A stretch of DNA of 16,465 nucleotides from Desulfofustis sp. (GTDB taxonomy: Bacteria > Desulfobacterota > Desulfobulbia > Desulfobulbales > Desulfocapsaceae): NCBI GenBank assembly GCA_030604345.1, contig JAUVWB010000006.1, positions 1 through 16,465 on the forward strand. The letters run 5' to 3'. Below are positions 1 through 14,251 of the stretch, piece after piece. The notes below the pieces were generated by a model that was given only the letters and a program-made list of their open reading frames with translations, ran no database searches and was not told the DNA's origin. The position numbers and the translations under genes are program-made. The first letter of the stretch is position 1, and each line of letters opens with the position of its first letter.

Positions 1-637
1 GGTGGTTGACCACCAGCAGTCGTGCATTGCCGGCCTTGCGCCGCAGGCGATTGATGAAACAGTCGCCGGATTCAGGACATTCCCCGCCCAAGCATTGATG
101 GGACAGTGCCGAGATTCGCGGCCACAGCGGCGACCGGTCGGTCAGCCAGGCAAGCTCGGCCCGATCACCGGTGTCAGTGGTCTCAAGCCATTTTTCGATC
201 CGCTCCCCATCCTGATCTTCGAGCAGCGACTGTTGCGGATGACTGCGAAACTGATACCATCGATGAAGGCAGAGATAGTTCTGCCTGCCTTTCACGCAGA
301 GGGCGCCGATATCATGACCGATGATGCGGGACAGCAGCGGGATTTCCTTGTCCACCAGCTGATCCTGCAAGTTGATGGTGGCGGTGGAGACAACCACTCG
401 TTTTCCGGAAAAGACTGCCGGCACCAGGTAGGCCAAACTCTTGCCGACCCCGGTTTCCGCTTCCACCACCAAGACCTGGGCATAGTCGGCCTGTCCGGCG
501 GTTCCCCGAGGCCGAACCTGAAGCAAGGCCTCCACCGCTGCCGCCATCCGCACCTGATCGGCGCGCGACTCATAACCGGCAAGGCGTTGCGCCAAAGGTC
601 CGTCTGCTGAAAAGAACGCCTGTACCGATTGTTCCAT
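1..637 (-). CDS. dinG: DinG/XPD-family ATP-dependent DNA helicase with Fe-S cluster, N-terminal part
   Basis: The gene reads leftward from ATG at 637-635 and runs off the window, so only 212 residues are visible and no stop is seen. An R-x-D-Q motif sits near residues 26-28. A Walker A motif, AETGVGKS (residues 60-67), is followed by STATINLQDQL, the usual segment after motif I in DinG/YoaA proteins. Four cysteines (C123, C182, C187, C193) have the spacing of the 4Fe-4S ligands of the XPD/DinG superfamily 2 helicases. LLVVNH (207-212) is the conserved segment that follows the iron-sulfur domain. Family members unwind DNA in the 5'-3' direction and act on R-loops, D-loops or damaged forks in the cytoplasm. 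The symbol dinG is used loosely, because a YoaA-like paralogue cannot be excluded from the N-terminus alone. The gene is divergent from the histidine kinase at 863. Confidence 0.9.
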   Translation of the reverse strand, partial: MEQSVQAFFSADGPLAQRLAGYESRADQVRMAAAVEALLQVRPRGTAGQADYAQVLVVEAETGVGKSLAYLVPAVFSGKRVVVSTATINLQDQLVDKEIPLLSRIIGHDIGALCVKGRQNYLCLHRWYQFRSHPQQSLLEDQDGERIEKWLETTDTGDRAELAWLTDRSPLWPRISALSHQCLGGECPESGDCFINRLRRKAGNARLLVVNH

Positions 638-702
638 ATCTGTGTCCGAAAGAAGCTATGGGATCGAAGTCACGGTTCGACCCGACCCCGCCGAGCTACC
701 AG

Positions 703-731
703 TTTATACGATTTTTATTTTTATTTTTCAA
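703..731 (-). promoter_or_regulatory. Sigma70-type promoter of the dinG-like helicase gene
   Basis: On the minus strand TTGAAA (726-731) and TATAAA (703-708) are separated by exactly 17 bp of an almost pure A/T spacer. Both hexamers match the sigma70 consensus at five of six positions. Transcription would start near 695 and give a leader of about 60 nt before the ATG at 637. The spacing and the A-tract character make this one of the two best promoter candidates in the window. Confidence 0.7.
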
Positions 732-862
732 CCAAACCGGTACACTGAACGCAGCTGGATGGGCAAGAATCACGGCGGGGGCGACGGCGGCCATCCCCTG
801 ATTCCCTGCTTATCCGAGCACGCCTTCCTAAAACCTGCCATCATTTTTCGGTATATGCTTCC

Positions 863-2695
863 ATGGTTGAGCTGTTGCCACCCGTAGGACAGGATACCGC
901 GACTTCCCCAGAACGACTTGTCGATGACAACGAGACAATTGTTATCGTTGACGATTCCCCCGAAATAGCCGTGCTGCTCAGGGCTTATCTGAGCAAACAC
1001 AACCTGCCGTCGCGAGCCGCCGCCTCGGCCGCCGAGCTGTTTCACATCATCGATGAACAGAAGGTCGCCCTGGTGCTGCTCGATATCGGCCTGCCCGATC
1101 GAGGCGGCAACGAGATCCTCAGCGAGTTGGTACATCACGATCCCGATCTGGGTATCATCATGGTCACCGGAACCACCGACCTGGAGACGGCCCTCCATTG
1201 CCTGCGTCTCGGTGCCGACGACTATCTGACCAAACCGGTCAATATCGAGCAGTTTCACTATACCGTAGCCAAGACCCTGCGAAAGCGGCGGTTGGCCATC
1301 GACAACCGCCGCTTTCAGGAAAAGCTGCAGCTTACCAACCTGCGCACCCAGTTTCTGCATCAGCTCAACCGGAAGATGAACTCCGCCTATCTCATCGCCC
1401 GGGAGCTCCAAGGCGTTCTCCAGACCATTCTCATCGGCATCACCTCCGAGGAAGGGCTGCGCTTCAACCGGGCCTTCCTGGCCCTGTTCGATAAAGCGGA
1501 AACCATGTTGCAGGGAGAACTGGCGATCGGGCCCGGCAGCAGGGAAGATGCGGCCGAGGTATGGAACGAAATCAAACGCAAGAATCTGAAGCTGCAGGAT
1601 CTTTTTTCGACGGTGTTTGCCGACTCGTTCAAAAAGGATGTCATCGTCAACGAGATTGTCCGCTCACTGGTGGTACCGGCCTCATTCGTCCAGCATCCGT
1701 TGATGCACGCCTGCCGTCATCGGAGTTCGATCCTGGTCAGGCAGGGCCAAGCGGACATAGCGATCCCCCACGAGTTGATCGAGACCCTCGGAGAAGACAG
1801 TTTCGTCATCGTCCCGCTCTTTTCTCCAAGCAAGGCGCTTGGGGTCATCATAGCGGACAACTTCGTCACCCGGCAATCGATCAACCAGGCCGACATTGAA
1901 GCATTGGAGATCTTCGCCGGACAGGCAAGCCTGGCCATTGAGCACTCGCGGCTCTACACCGATATGCAATCCAAGATCGACGAGTTGGAGCTGGTTACCC
2001 AGGAACTGGAAAAGAGCAAGGACCTGCTCATCGAAGCGGAGCGTTATTCGGCCCTTGGCCATATGTCTGCTCAGCTGGTGCACACGTTGCGCAACCCGAT
2101 CACCTCCATCGGTGGTACCGCCCGGCTCCTCAGCAAACGAATACCGGATGAGGAAAACAAGAAATTTCTCGACGTGCTGGTCAAGGAAACCAGTAAACTC
2201 GAGGCGACCCTTACCGACCTGTTCAGCTTTGTCGGCAGAAACGAGCTGGTCAAATCGCCGCAGACTCTCTTTTCTCTGATCCGTAGAAGTGTGATGATCT
2301 TTTACGGAGCGATGAAGAAGAGCTCCATCATCTATGACATCGACCTGCAAGGGGAGGACCCGATCCTGCATATTGACAGCGAGAAAATCAGACAGGTATT
2401 CGTTCACCTCATCAAAAACAGCATCGAGGCGATGCCCGACGGTGGAATACTGGAAGTCCGCTGCTGGCAGGAGAACAACTCGGTACTGATTGCCATCCGT
2501 GACACCGGTATAGGCGTCGACGTGCACAATCTACACCGGGTCACCGACCCGTTCTATACCACCAAGACCTATGGTACCGGCTTGGGACTTACGTTAGTCG
2601 AACAAATCCTCGAACAGCATGGCGCCGACTTTTCTCTGACACCGAGCAAGCCAACCGGGATGACAGCTCTGATCCGGTTCAAAAAGGACCACTAA
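863..2695 (+). CDS. Hybrid histidine kinase: REC-GAF-HisKA-HATPase
   Basis: This 610-residue cytoplasmic signalling protein has no membrane segment. Residues 26-140 form a receiver domain with acidic pocket D30/D31, phospho-acceptor D74 (LLDIGLPD), T102 and K124 (LTKP). Residues about 165-365 resemble a GAF-type sensor region, ending in the typical IEALEIFAGQASLAIEHSRL. A coiled coil (366-395) leads to a HisKA domain with H407 in VHTLRNP, an H-box like those of NtrB/ZraS-type kinases. The ATPase domain shows the N-box N519, G1 motif RDTGIG (546-551) and G2 motif GTGLGL (571-576), so all catalytic elements are present. The receiver comes first, the reverse of classical hybrid kinases, so it probably takes input from an upstream kinase or gates the C-terminal kinase. 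No partner regulator lies nearby. No clear ribosome-binding site precedes ATG 863, and I see no better in-frame start. Confidence 0.93.
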   Translation: MVELLPPVGQDTATSPERLVDDNETIVIVDDSPEIAVLLRAYLSKHNLPSRAAASAAELFHIIDEQKVALVLLDIGLPDRGGNEILSELVHHDPDLGIIMVTGTTDLETALHCLRLGADDYLTKPVNIEQFHYTVAKTLRKRRLAIDNRRFQEKLQLTNLRTQFLHQLNRKMNSAYLIARELQGVLQTILIGITSEEGLRFNRAFLALFDKAETMLQGELAIGPGSREDAAEVWNEIKRKNLKLQDLFSTVFADSFKKDVIVNEIVRSLVVPASFVQHPLMHACRHRSSILVRQGQADIAIPHELIETLGEDSFVIVPLFSPSKALGVIIADNFVTRQSINQADIEALEIFAGQASLAIEHSRLYTDMQSKIDELELVTQELEKSKDLLIEAERYSALGHMSAQLVHTLRNPITSIGGTARLLSKRIPDEENKKFLDVLVKETSKLEATLTDLFSFVGRNELVKSPQTLFSLIRRSVMIFYGAMKKSSIIYDIDLQGEDPILHIDSEKIRQVFVHLIKNSIEAMPDGGILEVRCWQENNSVLIAIRDTGIGVDVHNLHRVTDPFYTTKTYGTGLGLTLVEQILEQHGADFSLTPSKPTGMTALIRFKKDH

Positions 2696-2700
2696 CCCTT

Positions 2701-4104
2701 TCAGCCGTCCCGTTGCCAGGAGGCAAGCACCGCCGACAAGGAAACTGTCGCCGCGCAGAGCAACGTGGCCTGAAACGAGTCCATGAAGACAGGGCTTTGC
2801 TCCGGTCGGTAGTCATACAACTCGCCTCCCCCGGAAAACCAGCCGAACCAGGCGGCAAAAACGATGCCGGCAAAGGCCGCTCCGCAAAGCATTCCCAGGT
2901 TCCGAGACGTGGCCAGCAGGCCGGCAGTGACGCCGGCATCGTCATCTTTAATCCGGGCCAGCAGAGAGGCGGTATTCGGGGCCAGAAACATCGATTGCCC
3001 CATCCCCAACAGCACCAGCTTCCCGCACATCACCACGAGCGGCGTATCCGCCTTGGTCATGGCCAGCAGGAGCAGGCTGACAAAACAGACCAACAACCCC
3101 CCGGTGGTCAGATGACGACCGCCGAACCGATCGTAAAGCGCCCCCGATGCCGGAGAAACGACAAACAGGCTCAGCGGAACAGCCATCATCACCAAGCCGA
3201 TCAGATCCGCCGACAACCCACGCACATAGTCCAGATAGAAGGGCAACAGCACCAACACGACAAAAAGCGAGCCAAACGATACGGCGGCGGTGAACAGGCC
3301 GATATGATAATAACTTTTGGCAAAAAGATGGAGCGGCAAGAGCGCCGGTGTACGCACCCGCTCCGACCAGACAAACAAGGCAGCCACCACCAGCAACCAC
3401 AGCGCGCCGCCAAGACCGAACCGCCAATTGCACTCGGGCAGAAAATGAGCGTAGAGAATCAACGACACGACCAGGACCACCCATAATACTGCTCCGGTAA
3501 AATCAAAGCGTGGATTGGCCGCCGCGCCTTTCGACAGGTCAACTCCTTTGATCAGCCGGTAACCGAAAACGAGGATGGCCATGCGGATCGGGACCGTAAC
3601 CAAAAAGATCCTCCGCCAGGAATAGGCAGTGATGAGCATACCGCTGACGACCGGCCCGGTCATCAGCCCCGCCGAAGTCGCTATGCCGACCAATCCGAGG
3701 CCGCGGCCGAGTTCCCGGCGAGGGAATGCGTCCCGGATGATTCCCGGCCCGGAGGCCACCATCATCGCGGCACCGAGTCCTTGAAAAAACCGGACACTCA
3801 CCAGGACCCAGAGGTGTGGCGCCAGCGAGCAGCAGATCGAGGCCACGGTAAAGACCCCGATGCCGATCAGGTAGACGGTATCCTTGCCGAGACGATCGGA
3901 GGCCATCCCCCAGAACAACAAAGTGACGGTGATGGTCAGCAGATAGATGAGCACCACCCACTGCACAGCAACGAGCGGTGCGGAAAACGTGCGCATGATC
4001 GAGGGCAGGGCCACATTGATCATGCTGCTGTCCATGGTGCTGAGAAATACGCCGCCCCCACCGAGCAGCAACATCCGCCATTTCACGTCTGCCTCTTGGC
4101 TCAT
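2701..4104 (-). CDS. MFS efflux transporter, DHA2 (EmrB/QacA-like) family
   Basis: This is an inner-membrane, proton-driven exporter of 467 residues. The start at 4104 is chosen because the reading frame further upstream (to 4308) encodes an Arg-rich, non-membrane stretch unlike any transporter. From 4104 the protein begins MSQEADVKWRM and enters TM1 at once. DSSMINVALPSI at the end of TM1 is the DHA2 signature (usual form LD-x-TIVNVALP-x-I). GMASDRLGKDTVYLIG matches MFS motif A between TM2 and TM3. GPVVSGMLITAYSWRRIF matches motif C of antiporters in TM5. The length and continuing hydrophobic segments suggest 12-14 helices. The substrate cannot be told; drugs, dyes or metabolites are typical. 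The stop is five bases from the stop of the convergent kinase gene, leaving no room for a terminator. No strong ribosome-binding site is visible. Confidence 0.92.
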   Translation of the reverse strand: MSQEADVKWRMLLLGGGGVFLSTMDSSMINVALPSIMRTFSAPLVAVQWVVLIYLLTITVTLLFWGMASDRLGKDTVYLIGIGVFTVASICCSLAPHLWVLVSVRFFQGLGAAMMVASGPGIIRDAFPRRELGRGLGLVGIATSAGLMTGPVVSGMLITAYSWRRIFLVTVPIRMAILVFGYRLIKGVDLSKGAAANPRFDFTGAVLWVVLVVSLILYAHFLPECNWRFGLGGALWLLVVAALFVWSERVRTPALLPLHLFAKSYYHIGLFTAAVSFGSLFVVLVLLPFYLDYVRGLSADLIGLVMMAVPLSLFVVSPASGALYDRFGGRHLTTGGLLVCFVSLLLLAMTKADTPLVVMCGKLVLLGMGQSMFLAPNTASLLARIKDDDAGVTAGLLATSRNLGMLCGAAFAGIVFAAWFGWFSGGGELYDYRPEQSPVFMDSFQATLLCAATVSLSAVLASWQRDG

Positions 4105-4159
4105 CTGGGAATCTTGAAAAATTGCCGTTTGGCCCAAGCTTATCGCTGAGCAATCACAT

Positions 4160-4165
4160 ATTATC
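4160..4165 (-). promoter_or_regulatory. Possible -10 element for the MFS transporter gene
   Basis: GATAAT on the minus strand lies about 55 bp upstream of the transporter start and differs from the -10 consensus at one position. It is preceded by TTGCTAG, and no good -35 is found at 16-18 bp. A weak or activator-dependent promoter is possible. Confidence 0.3.
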
Positions 4166-4313
4166 CTAGCAATATCATGTACATGCCTGCGGCAAAATGT
4201 TCGTGCGCGCCTCGATCTTGAACGTAATTTCTCATTTCTCAGGTTCCCCCTCTGTCTTGCCACAATCGTTCCATGACCGGGCCATCCGTCCACCTTCAGA
4301 CTAATCAACGGGA

Positions 4314-4346
4314 GTCACAACGAACCGTGACGATGATCACCGTGAC
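4314..4346. promoter_or_regulatory. Cluster of GTGAC-type half sites
   Basis: GTCAC (4314-4318) and GTGAC (4327-4331) form an inverted repeat with an 8-bp gap. CCGTGAC occurs twice as a direct repeat (4325-4331 and 4340-4346), 15 bp apart. The arrangement could be an operator for a divergently acting regulator, but no promoter overlaps it closely. Confidence 0.2.
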
Positions 4347-4610
4347 CGAAAAGGCTGGCCGGTTTTCCCTCCGGCTGCTACGCGGCGATCTGCCGATTGT
4401 AGGCTGAATCCGGCGGAGGCGCAATGCAAGACAGGCCCCACCGATCCATTTGTCTCCAAGAGGTTTGACCGACGGTCACACACGATCTGTCCGGAAAAGC
4501 AGCGGGGCATTTCATGCCACAGGCGGTCAAGCGCCCCGATATCGGCAGTGCACCGACTGGTTTTCGCACGAGGGTTGAGGTTAAAGTTTGTTTCATTTGG
4601 GTAAGGGTTG

Positions 4611-4619
4611 TGTTATAAA
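4611..4619 (+). promoter_or_regulatory. Extended -10 promoter for the VTC/CotH operon
   Basis: TGTTATAAA contains a TG dinucleotide one base before TATAAA, the extended -10 form that does not need a good -35. The best -35-like match, TTCATT, is poor. Transcription would begin near 4626 and give a leader of about 150 nt. It is the only convincing promoter upstream of the four-gene operon. Confidence 0.5.
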
Positions 4620-4783
4620 ATGTGGCTCGGGTGGGCTTCGCACCTCTGGTGTACACCGATTTGAAACCGAGTTCACCGGATGTCTGGAAGGCAAGATACG
4701 GTATCAATGCCTTGCCGCCTCGGTCCCAGCCGTCCACCACTGCAACGCAACCCACCAGATAATCCAATTCTTTCGTGTTGTTT

Positions 4784-5470
4784 ATGAGCACCGCCCCATC
4801 ATCGGCTGAATACGAAATAAAGTACGTACTCGCCAACGAGCGCGCCCGCTCCCTCCGCCACTACCTTGCCAAGAGATATTGCGCAGACGGTGACTACGCC
4901 GCCGGCTACATCTCCAGCATTTATTTTGATACGGCCGATCTCTCGCTTCTGGACGAAAAACTCAACAGCGATTACCTCAAAATAAAGGTACGGCTGCGCT
5001 GGTATGGCTCTACCCCGGCATCTCCCCCTGCCCCACCTTTTTTCCTCGAGGTGAAACGAAAAATCGGCAGCACCCGCAAGAAGACCAGAAAGAGTTTCGT
5101 GAACGGTATTGAGACGCTTCTTCAGCCACTCCATCACCCGGACTTTTTCAGGTTCACCACCATCCTCGGCGAAGCCGGAGAATATTCAGGCAAACCGCTG
5201 TTTCCCGTGCTGCAGATCAGTTACTTCCGGACGCGCTATATCGACCCTTGCTCAGGCACCCGTTTTGCGGTCGATAGCGACATCCATGTCCCACGAATCA
5301 ACCGCCGATTTGTTGCCAGGTGCAACGGACAACCGCTGTCCACAGCAGTCTTCGAGTGTAAAGGCCACTCGCCTCTGCTCCCCGATTGGCTCACCCACAT
5401 CAACGCGCTGGCCGATTGCAGGAAAGACGCATTCTCCAAGTATGCCGCCTGCCTTTTGACAACAGCCTGA
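4784..5470 (+). CDS. VTC-domain protein (polyphosphate polymerase-like, CYTH fold)
   Basis: The product is 228 residues from ATG 4784; an in-frame ATG at 4775 would add three. YEIKYVL near the N-terminus is the E-x-K-Y motif of VTC/CYTH tunnel enzymes. SIYFDTADLSLLDEKL, then KIKVRLRWYG, then FLEVKRKIGSTRKKTRKSF supply the basic and acidic residues that line the tunnel, and FECKGHS near 192-198 is a later strand. In yeast Vtc4 this domain makes polyphosphate from ATP; bacterial single-domain versions are usually called polyphosphate polymerase domain proteins, and their reaction is mostly unproven. The protein has no signal peptide or membrane segment, so it should act in the cytoplasm, perhaps docked on the DUF4956 protein encoded next. 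It is the first gene of the operon. No strong ribosome-binding site is seen before either ATG. Confidence 0.88.
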   Translation: MSTAPSSAEYEIKYVLANERARSLRHYLAKRYCADGDYAAGYISSIYFDTADLSLLDEKLNSDYLKIKVRLRWYGSTPASPPAPPFFLEVKRKIGSTRKKTRKSFVNGIETLLQPLHHPDFFRFTTILGEAGEYSGKPLFPVLQISYFRTRYIDPCSGTRFAVDSDIHVPRINRRFVARCNGQPLSTAVFECKGHSPLLPDWLTHINALADCRKDAFSKYAACLLTTA

Positions 5471-5495
5471 AAGATTCCTTTTAACAGTGAACACC

Positions 5496-6206
5496 ATGGA
5501 CCCACAACGCATCGATTGGTACTCGGTTCTCTCCGGTTTTGGCAGTAAGAGCATGAACGAAATCGGCTTTATACCATTTTTGGGGATCATGGGCATTTCC
5601 CTGTTGTCCTCCCTTTTCATCGCGCTGCTCTACGTCCGCTTTTTCCAACCCCGCTCGACGGGGAGCCTTATTTATCGCGCCTTTCCGCTGCTGGGCATTT
5701 CGATTACCGCCATTTTCATCGCCATCCAGTTTTCGCTCCCCCTCTCGCTCGGCCTGCTCGGGGCCCTGTCCATTGTCCGTTTCCGTACGCCGATCAAGGA
5801 GCCGGAAGAGATCGGCTTCATTATGCTGGTTGTGGCCACCTCTCTGTGCGCCGCCACTTTTAACATTCTTTTTCTGTGCATCATCCTCGGAGTTGCAGTC
5901 ATCGCGCTGTTGATCATGCGTTTCGGGCGCCCTTATCTGATGGTCAATGATAACAGTGGTATGGTCATTCTTGAAATCCCGTCACCGCTGTATCATGAAC
6001 GCAACCGGGAGTTGTTCGACACGCTGAGTACCCATATTCCCTCCGGTCGCCTGGACAGCGTTGCGGAAAACGACGGGCAAGCGGTCATTTCCTATAATTT
6101 CCAAAAGGTCAAACAAAGCAGCCTTCTCGACCTCAAGGCCCTGTTCAACAACCACTATCCATCCGCAACTCTGAACATCTTTTACAACAACAATCAAGCA
6201 TTGTGA
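5496..6206 (+). CDS. DUF4956 family membrane protein
   Basis: The product is 236 residues from ATG 5496; a GTG at 5487 in the same frame would add three. The N-terminal two thirds are very hydrophobic, with about four membrane segments (roughly residues 25-47, 58-78, 80-92 and 108-140). LGALSIVRFRTPIKEPEE between them is the hallmark of DUF4956 proteins. After the last helix a soluble C-terminal domain of about 80 residues begins near MVNDNSGMVILEI. The family has no proven activity, but in many genomes it is encoded beside VTC-domain and CotH proteins, as here, and may anchor the VTC enzyme or move its product across the inner membrane; that role is inference. The gene starts 25 bases after the VTC stop. 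No clear ribosome-binding site is visible, so translation may be coupled. Confidence 0.88.
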   Translation: MDPQRIDWYSVLSGFGSKSMNEIGFIPFLGIMGISLLSSLFIALLYVRFFQPRSTGSLIYRAFPLLGISITAIFIAIQFSLPLSLGLLGALSIVRFRTPIKEPEEIGFIMLVVATSLCAATFNILFLCIILGVAVIALLIMRFGRPYLMVNDNSGMVILEIPSPLYHERNRELFDTLSTHIPSGRLDSVAENDGQAVISYNFQKVKQSSLLDLKALFNNHYPSATLNIFYNNNQAL

Positions 6207-6207
6207 C

Positions 6208-7050
6208 ATGGCGGCACGCACGCGACGAACATTCTTGCCAGGAGTCCGTGAGCTCGTTGCCCCGCTGCTGCTCGTGGCTGCTTTTCTTGGCCTCGCCCTC
6301 TTCTGTCAATATTTCACCGCCGGCCTGACCATTCACCTGGAGATAACCGCTGCCCAAGACGATATCCTGCAAGTCTATTGGCGCCATCAAGACGACTCTT
6401 TTCAAGGTGAAAGGTCGCTCCAAGCCACCCTACGAGGTGATGAACTCACGGTCTTCAGGGCCACCTTGCCCATGGCCGTCAACATCGACTACATACGACT
6501 CGACACCGGTCTAAAACCGGGCACGGCGATCCTATCGAAGGCCGAAGTTGCCTATGGATTCAACTCTCGACTCGATCTTCTCCAGTGGCTCCGCGACTTC
6601 GGCCCGGTCAGTACGTCGCAGGTACGGCTGCAGCAGCAGGACAACCACCTGGTGCTCCAATCGCAGGGAAACGATCCATTCATCGAAGTACCGACTCCCA
6701 TCAGAAAGCGCGATATCTTTACCTGGAACGCGCCATTGCTCGTTGCCGCCGGTATCGGGTTGCTTCTTTGCCTGCTTTTCCAGCAAGATCTGCTGAAGGG
6801 AGCCAAGAACCAGGGCTGGCTGCAGATTTCCCTCTCCGATGGAGCGCACCTGGTTGTTCCCGATTGTGCCGGAACCGACTACCGGGTTGGCCCTCACCTA
6901 TCCCGCCAGGTAAGCGGTCAAAAAGCCACCTATGGCATAAGGGTTGCCAACCTCGAGCCGGCTCTGGTAGCAGATCTGTTGCATCGTTTCAAGCAGGCTA
7001 ACGGCTCCGCCACCATCCGCTTTCAATACCAGCGGGCCGGAGACATATGA
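6208..7050 (+). CDS. Unrecognised two-pass inner-membrane protein of the VTC/CotH operon
   Basis: I do not recognise a family for this 280-residue protein. An Arg-rich N-terminus (MAARTRRTF) precedes TM1 (about 17-38), and a second helix lies at 173-192 (NAPLLVAAGIGLLLCLLF) followed by Lys residues. By the positive-inside rule both ends are cytoplasmic. The loop at 40-170 is then periplasmic and rich in alternating hydrophobic residues, suggesting a beta-sandwich. The cytoplasmic tail (195-280) is also predicted beta-rich and begins LLKGAKNQGWLQISLSDG. The ATG lies one base after the DUF4956 stop, and the stop TGA overlaps the CotH start (ATGA at 7047-7050). This gives four-gene translational coupling and implies the proteins are needed together. 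A bridging role between the cytoplasmic enzyme and a periplasmic kinase is speculation. Confidence 0.8.
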   Translation: MAARTRRTFLPGVRELVAPLLLVAAFLGLALFCQYFTAGLTIHLEITAAQDDILQVYWRHQDDSFQGERSLQATLRGDELTVFRATLPMAVNIDYIRLDTGLKPGTAILSKAEVAYGFNSRLDLLQWLRDFGPVSTSQVRLQQQDNHLVLQSQGNDPFIEVPTPIRKRDIFTWNAPLLVAAGIGLLLCLLFQQDLLKGAKNQGWLQISLSDGAHLVVPDCAGTDYRVGPHLSRQVSGQKATYGIRVANLEPALVADLLHRFKQANGSATIRFQYQRAGDI

Positions 7051-8816
7051 GGAACCGGATGCGTTTTCGCTGCTCCACCTCTGTTCTCCTGATTCTCATC
7101 GGCCTCCTTGTCGGGCTTGGTGCTCTGGCGCTGGAGAAGTTCGAGGGGTTTGCCCGACTGAAAAACGCGCTGCAGACCACCTCGGTCGGCTCCGGGATGA
7201 TGGATTATGGTACGCTGGGGAGCATTCTTAAACGGCTCCACCTGGTCGCGCCCGAGCCCACCAACTATGAACGATTTCCCGCTGCTCATCAGTCAGATGA
7301 AGAACTTGAAGTACATGTCTTTCAAAAGAAACGGCGGGTGGAGGAATATGCCTATGGTGCCACCACAGCCCATGAACGAGCTTTTCGCTCATCGGCGGTG
7401 ATTCACAACCTGCGGCCTGATTCAAGCCAATGGCCGATTATTTCTATCGTCGTCGACGATGACTTCCTGCACGACCCAGACACCGGCATCATGGTCAACA
7501 GGGAGCAAAAGGGTGGGGAGTGGGAGAGAATTGCCGAGGTGTCTTACGCCGAACAGGGCAAAGTGCTCTTCGAGACCCATGCGGGAATCCGAATGCACGG
7601 CGGAAAACGGTTGACCACGGGCGAATTCACTCCCGGCTTTCGCCTCTATTTCCGGAGAAAGTATGGGCTTGAACAGGTACCAAACGGACTCATCCTTCCT
7701 GACCTGCCGGTCCCGCTCCGCACGGTCGTGTTGCAGACCAGCGCCTGGCCACCCGGTTACCCGCTCAATAACCCCATCGCCTATGATATCGCCCGGCAGA
7801 TCGGCTGCGAGGCACCGGAAACTCGTCTGGTCTCCATTTATCTGAACGGGAAACCATACAGTCTCGGTTTTGCCACCGAACACCTGAGCCACCGCCAATG
7901 GGGGCAACGACTCGATGGCGCAGACTACTTCTTCGTCAAATACCGCAGCAAGAACTCAGAAAGAGACCTGGTGTCCTACCGCGAGAAACTCGGTACCGCC
8001 CTCGACGAAGGGGCCATCTTGAACATGGAGCAGGTGGCAGGGCGGATGGATCTTGACAACCTCACCGCTCAGATCCTGGCCTGGGCCTTCTGCGGTACCG
8101 GAGACTATTGCCAGGGCGTAGCGGTCGGCAGGCGCGACGATCCTGCCAGCCGGCTGTTTTATCTCACCTGGGACATGGACCACAGCTTCTGGGACGGTTC
8201 TGCCCGCACCTACGGATTCGATCGCCGCCATTGGCAACAACCCGCCTTGGAGGGTTTTCTCGAGCACAAGGACAAACGTCGGATCTGCTGGCGAACATAT
8301 ATCTTCAACCGCTTGTTTTACCATGACCCTGCCTATCGGGATCATTTCCTGCAACGGTTGAACGAAACCTTGAATCACCGGCTGTCACCTTCTTTCCTGC
8401 GCGAACGGCTCGATTATTATCGGCACATGCTCGCCACTTCCGGTCAGCCGCACGCTGATTATCGGGACATGCTGAGCAGCTTCTTCGAGAACCGCTCATC
8501 TTTCATCTATGCCGAATTGCATGATCTGTTCTCGATCCCGCCGCCCTCCTCCTGTTCAATTTCCTTTCCGGAAGGTCTGGCGGTTCTCATCGACGGGTAC
8601 GAATACCGGGCTCCCTATCAGGGGTTCTATTACCCCTCCAGCCCGGTTTCGGTCACCCTCCCTGATTCACTCCCCGATTCGCTGCGGGCCGTGTGGCGGG
8701 TCAATGGAGCGCAGGTGGAGCAACCACGGCTGCAGCTTCGGCTGGACGGCAACACCGCTATAGAACTGCTCGTAGTGCCGGCCTCGACACCAGAATCGCC
8801 GGCCTCCACGCAGTGA
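7047..8816 (+). CDS. CotH-family kinase, membrane-anchored
   Basis: The product is 589 residues. The N-terminus RNRMRFRCS followed by a hydrophobic helix (11-29) is a signal anchor, so the rest should lie outside the inner membrane. Residues 174-206 (ETHAGIRMHGG ... GFRLYFRRKYG) match the CotH pattern I-R-x-R/H-G-x ... K/R-x-S-Y-R-L. LVSIYLNGKPYSLGFATEHL (261-280) is the conserved strand with its glutamate. TAQILAWAFCGTGDY (340-354) and FYLTWDMDHSFW (371-382), with D376 and D378, form the metal-binding catalytic region. CotH proteins are atypical protein kinases, first described for a Bacillus spore coat protein; some relatives perform glutamylation. The C-terminal 60 residues look like a small Ig-like domain. 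The start overlaps the preceding stop by ATGA, with GGAG upstream. The C-terminal end may be frameshifted (see findings). Confidence 0.88.
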   Translation: MRNRMRFRCSTSVLLILIGLLVGLGALALEKFEGFARLKNALQTTSVGSGMMDYGTLGSILKRLHLVAPEPTNYERFPAAHQSDEELEVHVFQKKRRVEEYAYGATTAHERAFRSSAVIHNLRPDSSQWPIISIVVDDDFLHDPDTGIMVNREQKGGEWERIAEVSYAEQGKVLFETHAGIRMHGGKRLTTGEFTPGFRLYFRRKYGLEQVPNGLILPDLPVPLRTVVLQTSAWPPGYPLNNPIAYDIARQIGCEAPETRLVSIYLNGKPYSLGFATEHLSHRQWGQRLDGADYFFVKYRSKNSERDLVSYREKLGTALDEGAILNMEQVAGRMDLDNLTAQILAWAFCGTGDYCQGVAVGRRDDPASRLFYLTWDMDHSFWDGSARTYGFDRRHWQQPALEGFLEHKDKRRICWRTYIFNRLFYHDPAYRDHFLQRLNETLNHRLSPSFLRERLDYYRHMLATSGQPHADYRDMLSSFFENRSSFIYAELHDLFSIPPPSSCSISFPEGLAVLIDGYEYRAPYQGFYYPSSPVSVTLPDSLPDSLRAVWRVNGAQVEQPRLQLRLDGNTAIELLVVPASTPESPASTQ

Positions 8817-8881
8817 ACCGCGACGATGGTACCGCTCGTGCCCGCTTCCTTGAGTTGACCGAAGGCGACACGGTATCTATC

Positions 8882-8889
8882 GTATAGGT
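8882..8889. repeat. 8-bp target site duplication, left copy
   Basis: GTATAGGT directly precedes the first base of the IS and is repeated exactly at 10225-10232 after the last base. Eight base pairs is the duplication length expected of ISL3 elements. Confidence 0.95.
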
Positions 8890-8917
8890 GGCTCTTCGTC
8901 GTTTCAAGTGGATTTGA
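8890..8917 (+). repeat. Left terminal inverted repeat of the IS
   Basis: Begins GGCTCTTCGTCGTTTCAAGT and ends GGATTTGA. It matches the right end with four mismatches in 28 bases. The transposase stop (TGA, 8906-8904) lies within it. Confidence 0.9.
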
Positions 8918-10154
8918 GCAGATTACCGACCGGTGAGGCGATCAGGTAAATCATGCTGATAAATGTCTGTGGATTCCGATACCCTCTTGCCCGAGCTTTG
9001 GCTGCCTGGAAAATGCTGTTCAAGCCCTCCAGGCGAGCATTGCTGTGGCCCGACTGCCAGCGTGATTCAATCGCTTGGCGGTGCCTGATTACCGTCTCGA
9101 TTGCGGAGATGATCGGCTTTAACATCGGTGATCTCGTCAAACCGGTCTCTGCCATGCACAGCAGAAAATTGCTTAAGCGCCACTTGGCGGCCTGTGGAGT
9201 TGCTGCTCTTCGTACCCAGCGCAACCGCTCTTTTACCCGCCAGGCGATGGCCGTGAAAAAGTCCATCGACTCGAGTTCTGCCAGGGCCTGCCGTTCATTC
9301 TCGCTGAGGGTGGTGGATTCCTCGTTTTTCAAGACGGCCCACCGTGTTGCCTTTGGCAACCGCTTCTTCCTGGCCTCCAAGACACGGACTCTGTTAACCG
9401 CCTTGGTGAAGATTTGCACGACATGGAACCAATCGACCGTGATCTCTGCCGCAGAGAAATGCTTCTTGATACCGGATAGAAACGGCCTGGACATATCGCA
9501 CGTCACTTCCAGGATATTGTCGGCAGAGCCACCGTGCTCGGCGAGGAAACGCTTGAAGTGGCGAATCGTGTCCTGGCCTTTACCGGGGACGGCGAAAACG
9601 ACCGGATTCTTTTGCTGGTCCAGGTCGATGAACACGGTCACATAGTTGTGTCGTTTCTTTGCCGAGGTTTCATCAAGACCAATGGCTTTGAGTTCACTCA
9701 GATCTAGTTTTGCCAGGCTTTCCGAGACGTAATGAGACACGATGCGCCACAGCTTTTTATCAGGGATCTGGATGATCCGGGCCGCAGCCAGTACCGGCAT
9801 CTCGCGCACCAGCAAGAGTGCGGCTTGCTCGAACAGCAGGGTGAACTTGCTGCCCGTGCGCGCCCAGGGCACGGTGATTCTTTGGACCCCATGGTTGTTG
9901 CACATGATCCGCGGCACGTCGGCAGTGATATAACAGTGGTGCTGGAAGAAGTTGAGATGCCGCCAGGTCATTTCCTTGAAGTCATGGGCTTTGCACAATT
10001 CTCCGCACTCAGGGCAGGGAAACCTGCTCCCTCGTGGAGCGGCCAGGGTGATCCGCAGTTCATGGGGCGTGCACTCGGTGTTCAGCGTTTGACCGGTGAT
10101 TTCCCAGGGTTTCTCTACTCCAAGGCCTAATGCTATGATATCGTTACCGTTCAT
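8904..10154 (-). CDS. ISL3-family DDE transposase
   Basis: This 416-residue protein has the usual length for the family. An N-terminal zinc-binding-like region has CPECGELC and a later CNNHG (residues about 48-90), followed by a helix-turn-helix-like stretch ending in LWRIVSHYVSESL. The DDE catalytic domain shows AIGLDETSAKK (first Asp), VTCDMSRPFLSGI (second Asp, usual form D-M) and NARLEGLNSIFQAAKARARGYRN (Glu), the most conserved stretch of ISL3 transposases. An inserted helical region lies between the second Asp and the Glu. The start at 10154 is supported by GAGGAG, with a spacing that fits a strong ribosome-binding site. That site is itself part of the right-end palindrome. All catalytic residues are present and there is no frameshift, so the enzyme is probably active. 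Confidence 0.95.
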   Translation of the reverse strand: MNGNDIIALGLGVEKPWEITGQTLNTECTPHELRITLAAPRGSRFPCPECGELCKAHDFKEMTWRHLNFFQHHCYITADVPRIMCNNHGVQRITVPWARTGSKFTLLFEQAALLLVREMPVLAAARIIQIPDKKLWRIVSHYVSESLAKLDLSELKAIGLDETSAKKRHNYVTVFIDLDQQKNPVVFAVPGKGQDTIRHFKRFLAEHGGSADNILEVTCDMSRPFLSGIKKHFSAAEITVDWFHVVQIFTKAVNRVRVLEARKKRLPKATRWAVLKNEESTTLSENERQALAELESMDFFTAIAWRVKERLRWVRRAATPQAAKWRLSNFLLCMAETGLTRSPMLKPIISAIETVIRHRQAIESRWQSGHSNARLEGLNSIFQAAKARARGYRNPQTFISMIYLIASPVGNLLKST

Positions 10155-10160
10155 GCGTTT

Positions 10161-10222
10161 CTCCTCGCGATTTCGTGTGGATTTGATCTTATGATATCAA
10201 ATCCACACGAAATGACGAGGAG
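10161..10222. repeat. Long palindrome at the right IS end covering the transposase ribosome-binding site
   Basis: Two perfect 18-bp arms (10170-10187 and 10196-10213, core ATTTCGTGTGGATTTGAT) flank an 8-base loop. After a 2-base mismatch the pairing continues for 7 bp (CTCCTCG 10161-10167 with CGAGGAG 10216-10222). The outer arm is the terminal inverted repeat. The inner arm contains, on the minus strand, the GAGGAG that precedes the transposase ATG. Confidence 0.9.
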
Positions 10223-10224
10223 CC
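10197..10224 (-). repeat. Right terminal inverted repeat of the IS
   Basis: Read inward from 10224 it begins GGCTCCTCGTCATTTCGTGT and ends GGATTTGA. It pairs with the left end at 24 of 28 positions and is also the outer arm of the palindrome at 10161-10222. Confidence 0.9.
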
Positions 10225-10232
10225 GTATAGGT
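10225..10232. repeat. 8-bp target site duplication, right copy
   Basis: GTATAGGT, identical to 8882-8889. Its last two to three bases also form part of a small inverted repeat, GGTTAC/GTAACC (10230-10247), in the original target. Confidence 0.95.
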
Positions 10233-10325
10233 TACGTCTCAGTAACCCGCCAACGCCCGAGCAGAGCGAGACTTCTCCCGCTTTCTGAATAACCGGACGC
10301 AATCTACCAGCAAGGAGCCATCACC

Positions 10326-10838
10326 ATGAAACATCGCCTTATTGCACCTATGGTCCTTTTTTTCGTGTCAACGGGATTTTTGCTGTCGTGTCAACCCCTG
10401 TCCAGTTTCTACGTGGGCAAGCACTACGACCCCGCCACCACCATCCCGCTGGCGCTTCCGGGTCCCCAGGAAGGGACCTGGGAGAATTTCGAAATGAGTA
10501 TTTCCTACCGGTATCAGGCCGGCGAGGTATTCTCCGTTACCGGGACCGCTCTACTCGGCCGCCATTACCGTGATCTGTACCAATGGGTACAACAGATGGA
10601 TCTTTATCTGTTCCTGCTCGATGACAGGGCCCGGGTCCTGACAACCGAAAGAATCGTCCAACTGGCCGGGGTGGACGCCCAGTCAACCTTTCCTTTTGCA
10701 GTAGAGATGGCGCTGCCGTTACCGGCAGAAGCAAGCCAGATCGCGTTCGGCTACGACGTGCGCGTCTCCGGCAGTGATCCTGATCCTTCCGGTGGATCGG
10801 CCTGGTTTTACAAGTTGCCGTTAGCCAGTCGTCCCTGA
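10326..10838 (+). CDS. Small outer-membrane-type lipoprotein of unknown function
   Basis: The product is 170 residues. MKHRLIAPMVLFFVSTGFLLSC is a lipoprotein signal peptide with lipobox LLSC and Cys22. Residue +2 is Gln rather than Asp, so Lol-dependent transfer to the outer membrane is expected. The mature part is short and rich in predicted beta strands (for example SISYRYQAGEVFSVTGTALL) and ends in a tryptophan-containing FYKL segment; I recognise no family. AAGGAG lies 10 bases before the ATG at 10326, a good ribosome-binding site. Without the IS the gene would start about 166 bp after the CotH stop on the same strand. It could therefore have been the fifth gene of that operon, or a separate gene. 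It ends just before a strong hairpin terminator. Confidence 0.85.
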   Translation: MKHRLIAPMVLFFVSTGFLLSCQPLSSFYVGKHYDPATTIPLALPGPQEGTWENFEMSISYRYQAGEVFSVTGTALLGRHYRDLYQWVQQMDLYLFLLDDRARVLTTERIVQLAGVDAQSTFPFAVEMALPLPAEASQIAFGYDVRVSGSDPDPSGGSAWFYKLPLASRP

Positions 10839-10855
10839 AAAGTTCGGGGTAAAAA

Positions 10856-10883
10856 AAAGCCCGCTGCCGGAGCAGCGGGCTTT
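10856..10883 (-). terminator. Rho-independent terminator, mainly for the porin gene
   Basis: A perfect 12-bp stem (AAAGCCCGCTGC, 10856-10867, with 10872-10883) encloses the 4-base loop CGGA. On the minus strand it is followed by a run of eight T, ideal for ending the porin transcript 25 bp past its stop. On the plus strand only TTT follows, so it may also stop the lipoprotein transcript less efficiently. Confidence 0.92.
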
Positions 10884-10908
10884 GTGAAGATACTACTAAA
10901 AATCAGGA

Positions 10909-12132
10909 TTAGAAGGTCACGAAGAGACCAACACCGGCCTGGAAGTCATCGGCGTCTTCACCTTCGATCTCGGCGCTCAGGTACTGAACCTGTGCCTGCA
11001 GACTGGTGTTTGCCATAACTTCGTAGCTGGCACCGGCTGCCACGGCGATGGCGTCGGCATCAACGATATCATCGTCCTCTACGGTCAGGTAACCGACGGA
11101 AGCACCAACATTCAGGGCATCGCTCAGCTTGGCGAAGGCCTTCAGGGTAGCACCCATCACACCAGCGCCAGCGCCGGTCCAGTCAAACGGACGACCAAGC
11201 GCGATCTGCTCGTTATCCAATTTGGTGCCGACATCCCATACCGGGTCAAAACCGTCGAAGTCACCGGTGGCGCCGTTGCCCAGGTTAACATACTGGAATT
11301 CGTTATCATCAGCAGCCTGAGCATACCACAGAGCCGGCTGAATGGTGACGGTGTCGGTGACGGCCAGGTTGGCGGCCAACCAGCCCTGAATTCCGGTAGC
11401 ATCGGTGGTGGCGTCGTGATCGCCGGTGAAGAAGTTGACCTCACCGAGGATGGTAGCCATGCCGAGACCAGCGGAAGCGAAGGCGCCGAATGCATAGACA
11501 TCGCGATCAACAAAGGTGTCTCCACCGGTATAACCGGCAGCGAAGAACTCGGTTTTTACGTTCTCACCGAAGGACGGAGAAACGGAAACACCATACAGCA
11601 GGGCATCATCGGCGTCCTGGGCGGCAACGGCCGGAGTTGTCGCGGTGGCAACAACGGTGCCATCGTCATCAAGCATGAAGAAGGCTTTTACCGGAACAGC
11701 TCCTTTCACGTTGATCACGATACCGTTATCCTGGGCGTTCACCGCAGAAGTCGGGCTGAAGGCTGCATATACCAGACCAGCCTGGATATTGAACATGCCC
11801 TGGGTCAGATCGATATAAGCGCGGTCCCATTGCATGGAGTTGCCGTCGGCAGGAATACGGCCAGAACCGAAACCATCATAGCGACCCCATACCGCTTCCG
11901 TGGCATCCATACGGAAGACCACGTTGACATTCTCAGCGGCCTTGATTTTACCCATGATGCGCATACGCTGATCGGCATAAGCATCGTCACGACCGGACGT
12001 ATCCTCGTCTACCACCCAACCACGAACGCGCATTTCACCGCTCAGGCTAAGGCGTTCTTCAGCAATCGCCGGTACGGCTGCAAGACCAACCAGAACCGGC
12101 ACTGCAACAAGCGCTTTCATCATTTTTTTCAT
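10909..12132 (-). CDS. Outer-membrane beta-barrel porin
   Basis: The product is 407 residues. The start at 12132 is fixed by GGAGG (12144-12140) seven bases upstream and by the signal peptide MKKMMKALVAVPVLVGLAAV...AIA, cut before EE at residue 25. The mature protein begins RLSLSGEMRVRGW and has alternating amphipathic strands throughout, with few cysteines and many acidic loops (DEDTSGRDDAYADQ, VEDDDIVDADA). It ends in VGLFVTF, with the C-terminal Phe recognised by the Bam machinery. Strand patterns such as QMRIMGKIKAAENVNVVFRMDA resemble the major porins of sulfate-reducing deltaproteobacteria. It should form a diffusion channel; the substrate is unknown. A strong promoter, a structured leader and a strong terminator suggest a highly expressed single gene. 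Confidence 0.88.
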   Translation of the reverse strand: MKKMMKALVAVPVLVGLAAVPAIAEERLSLSGEMRVRGWVVDEDTSGRDDAYADQRMRIMGKIKAAENVNVVFRMDATEAVWGRYDGFGSGRIPADGNSMQWDRAYIDLTQGMFNIQAGLVYAAFSPTSAVNAQDNGIVINVKGAVPVKAFFMLDDDGTVVATATTPAVAAQDADDALLYGVSVSPSFGENVKTEFFAAGYTGGDTFVDRDVYAFGAFASAGLGMATILGEVNFFTGDHDATTDATGIQGWLAANLAVTDTVTIQPALWYAQAADDNEFQYVNLGNGATGDFDGFDPVWDVGTKLDNEQIALGRPFDWTGAGAGVMGATLKAFAKLSDALNVGASVGYLTVEDDDIVDADAIAVAAGASYEVMANTSLQAQVQYLSAEIEGEDADDFQAGVGLFVTF

Positions 12133-12165
12133 TGTTTTTCCTCCAAAACGGGGGGTTTTCGTTGC

Positions 12166-12181
12166 GCCCACCGCAGTGGGC
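12166..12181 (-). promoter_or_regulatory. Hairpin in the porin leader
   Basis: GCCCAC (12166-12171) and GTGGGC (12176-12181) form a perfect 6-bp stem with a 4-base loop. It lies about 20 bp upstream of the porin ribosome-binding site in the predicted mRNA leader of roughly 135 nt. It may stabilise the message or take part in post-transcriptional control. It is not followed by a T-run, so it is not a terminator, and I recognise no riboswitch class. Confidence 0.5.
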
Positions 12182-12272
12182 CTTACCAATCTTCTCTGTC
12201 TCCACTTCCCGGTTGGTGCGCCGCCTGCGCCGCCTGGACGCCTACAATGGAGGCCCGGAAATTACTAATGAA

Positions 12273-12301
12273 TCTATATACCCGACCCCCCACCATGTCA
12301 A
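12273..12301 (-). promoter_or_regulatory. Strong sigma70 promoter of the porin gene
   Basis: On the minus strand a perfect -35, TTGACA (12296-12301), is separated by exactly 17 bp from TATAGA (12273-12278), a four-of-six match. Transcription would start near 12266. The spacer is G-rich. Directly upstream of the -35 lies an A/T palindrome (12303-12327) in the position of an UP element. Confidence 0.8.
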
Positions 12302-12302
12302 G

Positions 12303-12327
12303 TTTTTTTTACCTTTAGTAAAAAAAA
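12303..12327. promoter_or_regulatory. A/T-only palindrome next to the porin -35: UP element or operator
   Basis: TTTTTTTTAC (12303-12312) and GTAAAAAAAA (12318-12327) are perfect 10-bp arms with a 5-base gap, ending one base from the -35. A-tracts here would bind the RNA polymerase alpha subunit; the perfect symmetry also fits a dimeric regulator or an H-NS-like or IHF-like protein. Confidence 0.5.
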
Positions 12328-12434
12328 TTATACTGGCAGGGTCGTTCCGTTTCCCACCGAAAAACAACCTGCTGCCCCATCGCATGAACGTCTCGGTACA
12401 CAAGAGGCCGATTCGACGTCATCGATTGCGGCCG

Positions 12435-14141
12435 CTATTGAACCATTTTCATCTCATAGGCCAGAATCCGGGTGTTGTCCCCGCCCGGTAAAAATCGGCG
12501 CCACAGGGCTTTCTCCGGCAGCTGCGCGACGTACAAACGGTTAAGCGCCGTCGCCCCATCCACCTCTGGACCGGCCTTCGGTTCAAAGACATAGTCGGCC
12601 ACATAGCCGGGAATATGATTGGTCCGCCATAATTCACGCAAGCCGCCCCCTTGCCAACTCAAGCAGGCCACCGAACCGCCGTCGAAAGTACGCATGTTCG
12701 GCAGGTACTTGCTGATGACGTCCACCTCGTTGGTGACCACAACGACCTCCGGCAACCCGTCGCCGGTGATATCTTTAACATCCAATCGTCCGGGAATATA
12801 AACAAGTTGAGGAATATCCTGCTCGCGGCCGCTGTCGAAGGTACCCGGCTCCTCGTCGTTGGCCAGCGGCGGCCCGAAATAGCTGAGACTGCCGCCATAA
12901 TTGGCGTTACTGACCCAGATTAGATTCTGGTCCTGGTCATAGAGGAGCAACCGTTGCTGACGGTCGACCAGGGCCGTTTCAATGGCGTTATCGCCGTTGA
13001 AATCGGCAAAAACGAAATCAAACAGATTGGTGCCGAGCGGCAGCGGAACCCGTCCGGTCCGTTCCAGGCGACCGGATTGTCGATCCAACTGCAGCTGATA
13101 GACACCGGGGGACAGATAGAGATCGGCGGCCTCGCTACTGGCTCGCTGACCGACCAGTACCATCCCTTTGCCCGGCCAGGACAACGGCCGGATGTACCAG
13201 TCCAGCCGCTCATGCACCGGCTGCAAAGAAGCTGAGCCATCCCAGGAAAAAATCGCCGAAGCTGCGGAACGCCCGATATTTCCCGAGACAAAAAGCAGCG
13301 ATGACGATTCTTCTTCCAAGCGTGCGATATTGATCACATGAATTTTCATGGTCACCGGTAATTCATACTCGGCTACCTGTTGAAATCGTTGTTCTGCAAA
13401 GTGAAAGACCAACAGCTTGTAGCGAGACGCCACCACCAGATCGGCAACACCGTCCCCGTCGAGATCCCCCAAGGCCATGGACTCCACGTCAATCGGCAAC
13501 GGCGAACTACGGCGCACCCCGCGCGACTGGAATCGTTCGTCCTGTTCACCGAAAAGCGTTGTACCGCTATACAGTCCCTTTTTATAATCACGTTCGGGGT
13601 GGGGGGTCTGAAAGGCATCCGCGGGCTTTACGGTGGCCTGATCTCCTGCAACCGGCGATTCGGCAACCGCTTTGAGGCGGATTCCGATATCGCCGGCCAA
13701 GGCCGTGACGGCCGGCAAGACGGCATCGATTTCACCCACCGTAAAACCGAGTTCCTGCGGTTGATCCGCCGTGCTCGCATAAAGCTTGAGATCAACACGA
13801 ATATCCGGACCACTGGAGATGATAGCCCCTTTTGCCAGCCAGTTCGCCTGATAGCGCTGCAACACCTGTCGATGGTCACCAGCCAGTACTTGCTTGCTGA
13901 TCAGCTCTTGCTCCGTGCCATCGAGGGCCGGAGCAATCACCGTGATCGCCTCCTGACGCGCCAACCGGCTGGTCAGCATCTGCCGAACCGCATCATCGAG
14001 ATAGTGCAACGGCCCGGCCTCGGTGGCGGTAAAAGGCAGCAACAGAACCGTCTGGGAATCTTGCCCTTCTTCAGCCTGGAGGAGCGACCAGGAGCAGATC
14101 ACGATGATCATGCTGATCAATCCTTGGAAAACCATTCTCAT
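12435..14141 (-). CDS. Exported protein with TolB-like N-terminus and FG-GAP repeats
   Basis: The product is 568 residues from ATG 14141, preceded by AGGTG; a second in-frame ATG at 14135 is possible. The signal peptide runs to about residue 23 (SWSLLQA|EE). Residues 31-160 begin VLLLPFTATEAGPLHYLDDAVRQMLTSRLA. This resembles the N-terminal domain of TolB-like or FlgO/CsgG-related periplasmic proteins, which open with VLPF followed by a helix of the form L-x-x-x-L. After a linker come FG-GAP/VCBS-type calcium-binding repeats: DLDGDGVADLVV (226-237), ADFNGDNAIETALV (379-392) and DITGDGLPEVVVV (458-470). A seven-bladed propeller is likely. The function is unknown; the architecture suggests a secreted or periplasmic scaffold. 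It is divergent from the small outer-membrane protein at 14408. No terminator follows it. Confidence 0.85.
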   Translation of the reverse strand: MRMVFQGLISMIIVICSWSLLQAEEGQDSQTVLLLPFTATEAGPLHYLDDAVRQMLTSRLARQEAITVIAPALDGTEQELISKQVLAGDHRQVLQRYQANWLAKGAIISSGPDIRVDLKLYASTADQPQELGFTVGEIDAVLPAVTALAGDIGIRLKAVAESPVAGDQATVKPADAFQTPHPERDYKKGLYSGTTLFGEQDERFQSRGVRRSSPLPIDVESMALGDLDGDGVADLVVASRYKLLVFHFAEQRFQQVAEYELPVTMKIHVINIARLEEESSSLLFVSGNIGRSAASAIFSWDGSASLQPVHERLDWYIRPLSWPGKGMVLVGQRASSEAADLYLSPGVYQLQLDRQSGRLERTGRVPLPLGTNLFDFVFADFNGDNAIETALVDRQQRLLLYDQDQNLIWVSNANYGGSLSYFGPPLANDEEPGTFDSGREQDIPQLVYIPGRLDVKDITGDGLPEVVVVTNEVDVISKYLPNMRTFDGGSVACLSWQGGGLRELWRTNHIPGYVADYVFEPKAGPEVDGATALNRLYVAQLPEKALWRRFLPGGDNTRILAYEMKMVQ

Positions 14142-14251
14142 AGTGCACCTGTAAAGGAAACGAGCTTTTAAGGATAGAGAGCCCACTAACGGGATAGCAT
14201 CGGAAAGAAAATGTGATGTTAATGCATCTCCTGCAGAACTGCAACAAAAGC

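Follow-up and report, generated by a model that had tools for sequence, protein, structure and literature searches.

Genes for a VTC-domain protein, a DUF4956 membrane protein and a CotH-family protein have been published as accessories of the Pel loci in Gram-positive bacteria (PMC7112168; PMC12345266; all papers are cited here from excerpts of their text), and the CotH of the Pel locus has been proposed to regulate Pel synthesis through protein phosphorylation (PMC7112168). The authors of the second study state that their analyses failed to find this arrangement of three genes outside the Pel locus (PMC12345266). In S. intermedius, deletion of SIR_1592 or of the gene for the CotH homologue lowers aggregation and alters Pel, with an increase of Pel in the former case and a decrease in the latter (PMC12345266). 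SIR_1592, described as MgtC-like with four transmembrane (TM) segments and an ACT domain (PMC12345266), is taken here to be the DUF4956 protein. We have analyzed a four-gene operon that unites the same three families in a stretch of 16,465 nucleotides from Desulfofustis sp. (contig JAUVWB010000006.1, positions 1 to 16,465; the window in what follows), and find it to be a real and conserved module, part of which has been described before and whose fourth subunit, P3, is newly decoded. An earlier note on this DNA had put the set forward as its best candidate for an undescribed system, which cannot be maintained for the three families because the trio, with protein phosphorylation proposed for it, is already in print (PMC7112168; PMC12345266). 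In the excerpts covered by our literature search no description of a P3-type subunit was recognised, and the decoding of P3 as the fourth subunit is new here.

The operon comprises the following genes:

4784..5470, plus strand: VTC-domain protein of 228 amino acids (aa), ATG at 4784, stop at 5470

5496..6206, plus strand: DUF4956 protein of 236 aa, ATG at 5496

6208..7050, plus strand: third gene, P3, a predicted two-pass bridging protein of 280 aa (TM segment 2-37, CBM60-like sandwich 40-162, TM segment 174-191, DUF4956-C-like domain 198-276)

7047..8816, plus strand: CotH-family kinase-like protein of 589 aa (N-terminal hydrophobic segment 11-29, kinase-like domain, C-terminal region)

The distances between the genes amount to 25, 1 and -4 nucleotides, and both the coordinates and the Pfam results agree with the four-gene arrangement read by the earlier note; with an alternative in-frame GTG start for DUF4956 at 5487 the first gap would be 16. 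Pfam matches were obtained for the first protein to VTC (1.3e-20; 74.4 bits vs a cut-off of 23), for the second to DUF4956 (4e-14; 53.1 bits vs 30.6) and for the fourth to CotH (2.5e-17; 63.8 bits vs 23.8), P3 matched no Pfam family, and an NCBIfam scan of the four proteins gave no match. In a related genome (locus L095, cut from G200) the whole operon is about 92% identical over its length, with pairwise dN/dS values of 0.137 for VTC, 0.047 for DUF4956, 0.271 for P3 and 0.148 for CotH. Since these values lie between 0.05 and 0.27, all four genes look to be kept by selection, and DUF4956 appears to be held most tightly.

Hydropathy analysis revealed no hydrophobic segment in the VTC protein, and its Pfam scan gave no SPX match. 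A search of the PDB with the single sequence produced weak matches only, and a profile of 29 relatives matched yeast Vtc4 at 1.5e-9 among the PDB chains. In the alignment rows for 8i6v, R70 and R72 correspond to R264 and R266 of Vtc4 and E191 corresponds to E426; similarly, K91 is aligned with K281, Y147 and R149 with Y359 and R361, and S218 and K219 with S457 and K458, the latter five residues of Vtc4 being ones which we take to be important in the tunnel. K13 of the window protein, which lies outside the profile alignment, is presumably the counterpart of Vtc4 K200. Residues were counted in all VTC and CotH open reading frames (ORFs) of the window and of 42 loci, second copies and fragments included (45 ORFs of each family); the loci came from a scan with the DUF4956 protein, a biased sample chosen by similarity to the DUF4956 of the window. 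Alignment A1 of the VTC proteins held 29 of 43 rows, some having been dropped as fragments and others in order to shorten it. Counterparts of R264, R266 and E426 are retained in 44 of the 44 VTC sequences that cover them, and R70, R72, E191, K91, Y147, R149, S218 and K219 have their counterparts in all covering sequences (44 or 45 of the 45), so that the tunnel residues, whose possible loss the earlier note had raised, are not lost on alignment. The combination R264A/R266A/E426N has served as the inactive version of the yeast VTC complex (PMC9911596). The VTC protein of the window is a probable cytosolic polyphosphate polymerase with the fold of a triphosphate tunnel metalloenzyme (TTM).

For the DUF4956 protein five membrane helices are predicted, followed by a C-terminal domain (residues 151-235) with an ACT/ferredoxin-like fold (AF2 model, pLDDT 83), which is probably located in the cytosol. 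Alignment A2, with 43 of 43 rows, contains invariant residues at G56, S57, R61 and F63, at R95, F96, R97 and P99, and from K101 to M110 (43/43 in each case). No match was found when the DUF4956 profile was compared with the PDB chains, Vtc subunits included. We regard DUF4956 as the probable membrane partner of VTC. In NELoc-2 of C. perfringens (CP4_0460-0465), each of two VTC genes precedes a gene for a membrane protein of 222-226 aa annotated as "tubulin/FtsZ", and CotH comes next (PMC2879425); judged by place and size, these "tubulin/FtsZ" proteins are probably misnamed DUF4956 proteins.

P3 had been listed in the earlier note as an unknown membrane protein, which fits the lack of a Pfam family but no longer the state of its domains, as a DUF4956-C-like and a putative CBM60-like part can now be distinguished. 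Its C-terminus matches the C-terminal domain of DUF4956 when separate family profiles are compared; an iterated P3 profile also matched DUF4956 ORFs and was not relied on because of possible profile drift. The outer domain is, by fold match, a putative CBM60-like sandwich, and Foldseek with P3 returned nothing at E ≤0.001. Probably, the sandwich is situated outside the membrane and the DUF4956-C-like domain inside. In two relatives a P3-type outer domain is fused to CotH. Homologues of P3 in the protein database number at least eight, that of the window included, among the best 7997 candidates scored, and in most of the loci P3 is absent as a separate gene.

When the single CotH sequence was compared with the PDB chains by phmmer no match was obtained, whereas a profile of 28 CotH relatives matches the Bacillus CotH structure 5jd9 at 2.6e-12. 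D353 and D376 of the window protein align to 5jd9 with a spacing of 23, equal to that of D228 and D251 in B. subtilis CotH, where changes at these two positions inactivate the kinase (PMC7821199). Of the 41 CotH sequences that cover these positions, all have D376 and 38 have D353 (28/28 in alignment A3, which holds 28 of 40 rows and leaves out fragments, rows removed for shortening, and the most divergent CotH proteins L029, L031, L038 and L042). A hydrophobic N-terminal segment precedes the CotH domain in 26 of the 28 aligned proteins, which are thus probably membrane-anchored or exported, as CotH of the window would be; the four CotH proteins checked at a distance from the module (L103-L106) have such a segment as well. 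Hydropathy supports the division into an inner and an outer side that the earlier note had made. Accessory domains of surface type occur on some CotH proteins (CHB_HEX_C_1 in 2/28, Fn3_assoc in 2/28, a beta-helix in L098). Minus-strand, module-facing CotH copies with asparagine at the position of D353 (L038, L041, L042) may be pseudokinase partners.

The source titles of the 42 loci name Desulfobulbaceae, Desulfobacterales, Spirochaetes, Verrucomicrobia, Kiritimatiellae, Acidobacteria, Planctomycetota, Aminicenantes, Methylophaga and others. All 42 loci have VTC ahead of DUF4956 in the same orientation. CotH was detected downstream, again in this orientation, in 36 of them by script, to which L018 has to be added, where an over-extended CotH ORF had been missed. 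In L002 and L041 CotH is encoded on the opposite strand, and no CotH was seen in L030, L033 and L039, the first two of which end less than 0.6 kb from DUF4956. In L024, L029, L019, L038 and L042 the module is accompanied at short distance by another VTC/DUF4956 pair or another CotH gene. The order of G002 was surveyed over 146 genomes, of which nine contain DUF4956 and the same nine contain VTC; CotH exceeds the cut-off in ten, eight of which belong to the VTC/DUF4956 set, and seven of these eight CotH genes lie near the module, that of G002 itself being about 9 kb away on the other strand. The ninth genome, G284, encodes a protein of 892 aa between DUF4956 and VTC; it gave no CotH match at E 0.1 but is a relative of the G283 CotH/beta-helix protein, the similarity residing chiefly in the beta-helix and, less strongly, in a piece at the N-terminus (BLASTP 5e-12). 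Gene order therefore varies, with the gene in the CotH slot between DUF4956 and VTC in G283 and G284 and with CotH upstream of VTC in G216 and G244. In the Spirochaete phylum (149 genomes), eight of the nine genomes with VTC over the cut-off also carry DUF4956; across the phylum of G002 the latter is rare (3/148 genomes), and the control B. subtilis showed a CotH match and neither VTC nor DUF4956. Another control, Corynebacterium glutamicum, matched all three families. Chance figures, which ignore kinship, are 1.6e-14 for the identity of the VTC and DUF4956 sets, 9.5e-11 for CotH and 3-5e-7 for the Spirochaete overlap. The distances of VTC, DUF4956 and CotH correlate with r values of 0.79, 0.58 and 0.67 (Mantel, 35/43 rows), which shared ancestry alone could explain. 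The association of the three families claimed by the earlier note is borne out (VTC in 42/42 loci, the same 9/146 genomes, CotH in 8/9), and the survey of DUF4956 neighbourhoods that it proposed found homologues often adjacent, with VTC beside DUF4956 throughout (42/42). CotH has also been included in a gene set for twisted stalks, with VTC and DUF4956 unmentioned in the excerpts of that paper (PMC8250860).

PelG, the sole Pel gene searched for, went undetected in all 16 genomes that carry both VTC and DUF4956, several of which are drafts; the search was positive in the control Thermotoga maritima, and 15 of these 16 PelG-negative genomes carry CotH (Pfam). The 14 window proteins scanned showed no Pel domain and no DUF4832 match. 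Since 16 genomes are PelG-negative and since loci with all three families, or with VTC and DUF4956 only, come from several phyla, the function of the module is probably broader than Pel. Glycan genes are found near the module in some relatives, at a frequency above expectation. In a scan of 149 flanking proteins of 130-900 aa from loci with a called DUF4956 (L018, L027, L034 and L037 dropped), GT2 was present in 8/69 and 2/80 proteins, and at least 6 of 16 genomes have a GT2 gene no more than 10 kb away from the module, vs 1.6 expected (P 0.004). Neighbours of the module include GT1, MBOAT and AlgX (O-acetylation genes) in L007, where the AlgX-type protein gave no P3 match, a sulfotransferase and GT1 in L009, and a glycosyltransferase and a carbamoyltransferase in L099. 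The earlier note had CotH modify proteins outside the cell; its outer position is supported by hydropathy, but the substrate may instead be a surface glycan, with glycan genes near the module in some relatives and none found among the 14 window proteins scanned.

We tentatively favor, with somewhat less than even confidence, a module that spans the membrane and transfers phosphate in the cell envelope, with VTC inside, DUF4956 as its partner, P3 as a bridge and CotH outside. We infer that VTC makes polyphosphate, that DUF4956 exports or controls it, that P3 forms the bridge and that CotH phosphorylates a polymer at the surface. Judged by its conserved active-site residues, the VTC domain would form polyphosphate from ATP in the cytosol. 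DUF4956, the constant partner of VTC in the order surveyed, would pass the chain outward, an export of a polyanion that an inner-negative membrane potential would favor, or would gate the chain by means of its ACT-like domain. P3, with a relative of the DUF4956 C-terminus at one end and a sandwich of carbohydrate-binding type at the other, would tie both membrane faces together, and CotH, anchored or secreted and with its kinase-like domain outside, would phosphorylate a surface glycan or glycoprotein. Going one step further, exported polyphosphate instead of ATP might be the phosphoryl donor with which CotH outside modifies a surface glycan or protein, with DUF4956 passing the chain down the membrane potential and P3 aligning the inner and outer parts; we consider this unlikely, and G168 and G178, which carry an apparently extracytoplasmic CotH in the absence of a VTC match, count against it.

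A number of observations weigh against the phosphate-transfer module. In the excerpts covered by our literature search, no reaction was recognised for the set and no activity for any bacterial VTC homologue, and for the VTC deletion in S. intermedius (SIR_1593) no change is described (PMC12345266). The CBM60-like match of the outer P3 domain is one of fold, obtained with an alignment of 7 sequences. No glycan-synthesis domain was detected in the 14 window proteins scanned, and the module has unrelated neighbours in the window and in several relatives (L001 and L097 among them). Two further positions of Vtc4, K455 and R373, which we assume to belong to the tunnel and do not treat as defining, are less well kept: at the position of K455 (216) the residues are S in 25, A in 13, R in 2, N in 2, E in 1 and K in 1 (n = 44), and at that of R373 (160) arginine, present in the window, occurs in 35 of 44 sequences in the full recount, vs 27 of 29 rows of alignment A1. 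In CotH, D353 is replaced by asparagine in three divergent minus-strand copies (L038, L041, L042). Also, the families are not strictly bound to each other: 14 of 22 DUF4956-positive genomes of the Spirochaete phylum have no VTC match, L107 (G328) has VTC without a DUF4956 match as the only exception of nine in that phylum, and the control Bacteroides ihuae has VTC and DUF4956 matches and no CotH. As G168 and G178 encode CotH with a hydrophobic N-terminus and show no VTC match, an extracytoplasmic CotH would not seem to depend strictly on VTC.

Part of these data could be accounted for by a regulated kinase, in which VTC and DUF4956 would act as a cytosolic sensor of phosphate or nucleotide that controls the outer CotH, via P3 where present, and in which no polyphosphate would be exported. 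Such control is close to the published proposal that CotH regulates Pel by protein phosphorylation (PMC7112168), and the opposite effects of the SIR_1592 and CotH deletions on Pel in S. intermedius, with no change described for VTC (PMC12345266), are in agreement with it. DUF4956 and P3 both have ACT/ferredoxin-like domains, and a protein that crosses the membrane twice and has a domain at either face would be apt for a relay. However, active-site residues of VTC that are present in 44 of 44 covering sequences would be needless for mere sensing, and a relay through P3 is not general, as most loci have no separate P3 gene. We regard this explanation as possible, if rather unlikely. That the operon joins two separate functions behind one promoter, polyphosphate storage by VTC and DUF4956 and an independent envelope kinase CotH, would be consistent with the occurrence of DUF4956 without VTC, of VTC and DUF4956 without CotH and of CotH without VTC; but co-occurrence and adjacency persist across phyla, and one domain of P3 recurs in DUF4956 and the other in fusions to CotH, which makes this quite improbable. 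A CotH that is a glycan-binding scaffold or pseudokinase and no phosphotransferase, to which the low similarity to characterised CotH (no phmmer match in the PDB with the single sequence), the accessory binding-type domains of some relatives and the change of D353 to N in 3/41 would point, is very improbable in view of both aspartates being present in the window and in 38/41 and 41/41 of the covering sequences.

According to the locus titles, the trio or the VTC/DUF4956 pair occurs in Desulfobacterota, Spirochaetes, Verrucomicrobia, Kiritimatiellae, Acidobacteria and others, and P3 supplies a concrete physical hypothesis, with an ACT-like domain inside and a glycan-type domain outside. If polyphosphate is exported, bacteria would possess, in the phosphate-transfer module, an equivalent of yeast VTC that is linked to modification of the envelope, and if polyphosphate feeds CotH, this would explain how a kinase works where ATP is absent and would render the question of the phosphate donor testable.

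Outside the coding region of the operon, two features were considered:

4611..4619, plus strand: putative extended -10 TGTTATAAA, the promoter of the earlier note, not clearly above chance

8887-10245: ISL3-family element directly downstream of the operon, with the transposase at 8904-10154 on the minus strand

Sites like TGTTATAAA with at most one mismatch number 8 in the window vs 4.3 expected, 10 of 200 shuffles reach 8, and a sigma-70 scan of the window listed no site at 4611-4619. The motif is identical in L095, yet the surrounding stretch is 89% identical anyway. The one extended -10 promoter that the earlier note had placed ahead of the operon is thus not supported, and a single promoter for the four genes is an assumption, since the proposed site is one of 8 comparable ones vs 4.3 expected. 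An Rfam scan of the window gave no match. Positions 1-4106, 4583-8886 and 10246-16465 are collinear with L095 at 90-94% identity, and the ISL3 element, which has terminal repeats of 28 nucleotides (nt) at 8890-8917 and 10197-10224 (86%), is missing there. An inverted repeat of 27 nt (93%) with an 8-nt loop lies at 10161-10222 within the end of the element. Upstream of the operon, 4107-4582 is barely conserved with respect to L095, with only 4381-4473 aligning between flanks of more than 90% identity. On the minus strand, 10909-12189 encodes a protein without Pfam match and porin-like in appearance, and 12435-14297 an FG-GAP repeat protein without full family assignment.

When compared with known systems, the operon shares the adjacency of three families with the Gram-positive Pel accessory set (cotH, polyphosphate polymerase, DUF4956 and DUF4832; SIR_1591-1594; PMC12345266), but differs from it by the lack of PelG, the only Pel gene searched, in 16 of 16 genomes, by the lack of a DUF4832 match among the 14 window proteins and by P3 as an added fourth gene. 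The multi-helix membrane part and the C-terminal ACT-like domain of DUF4956 resemble the MgtC/SapB family; the C-domain of MgtC (2lqj) appears at Foldseek rank 6 for the DUF4956 C-domain, and in hhalign comparisons DUF4956 and 31 MgtC sequences of the same order are collinear over 190 columns. However, the profile match is not significant (probability 2.9, E 0.016), nor was it when one MgtC sequence was used. Like the Bacillus CotH spore-coat kinase (5jd9), the fourth protein has the kinase core and both aspartates at equal spacing, whereas relatives of the window CotH are probably membrane-anchored or exported. Finally, like the yeast VTC complex (Vtc1/Vtc3/Vtc4), the operon combines a catalytic unit, a TTM domain with counterparts of R264, R266 and E426, with a membrane unit; unlike that complex, it shows no SPX match, its membrane unit is DUF4956, and an extracytoplasmic kinase-like protein is attached. 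The module would operate on the VTC principle, extended to the envelope, but is no yeast-type VTC complex.

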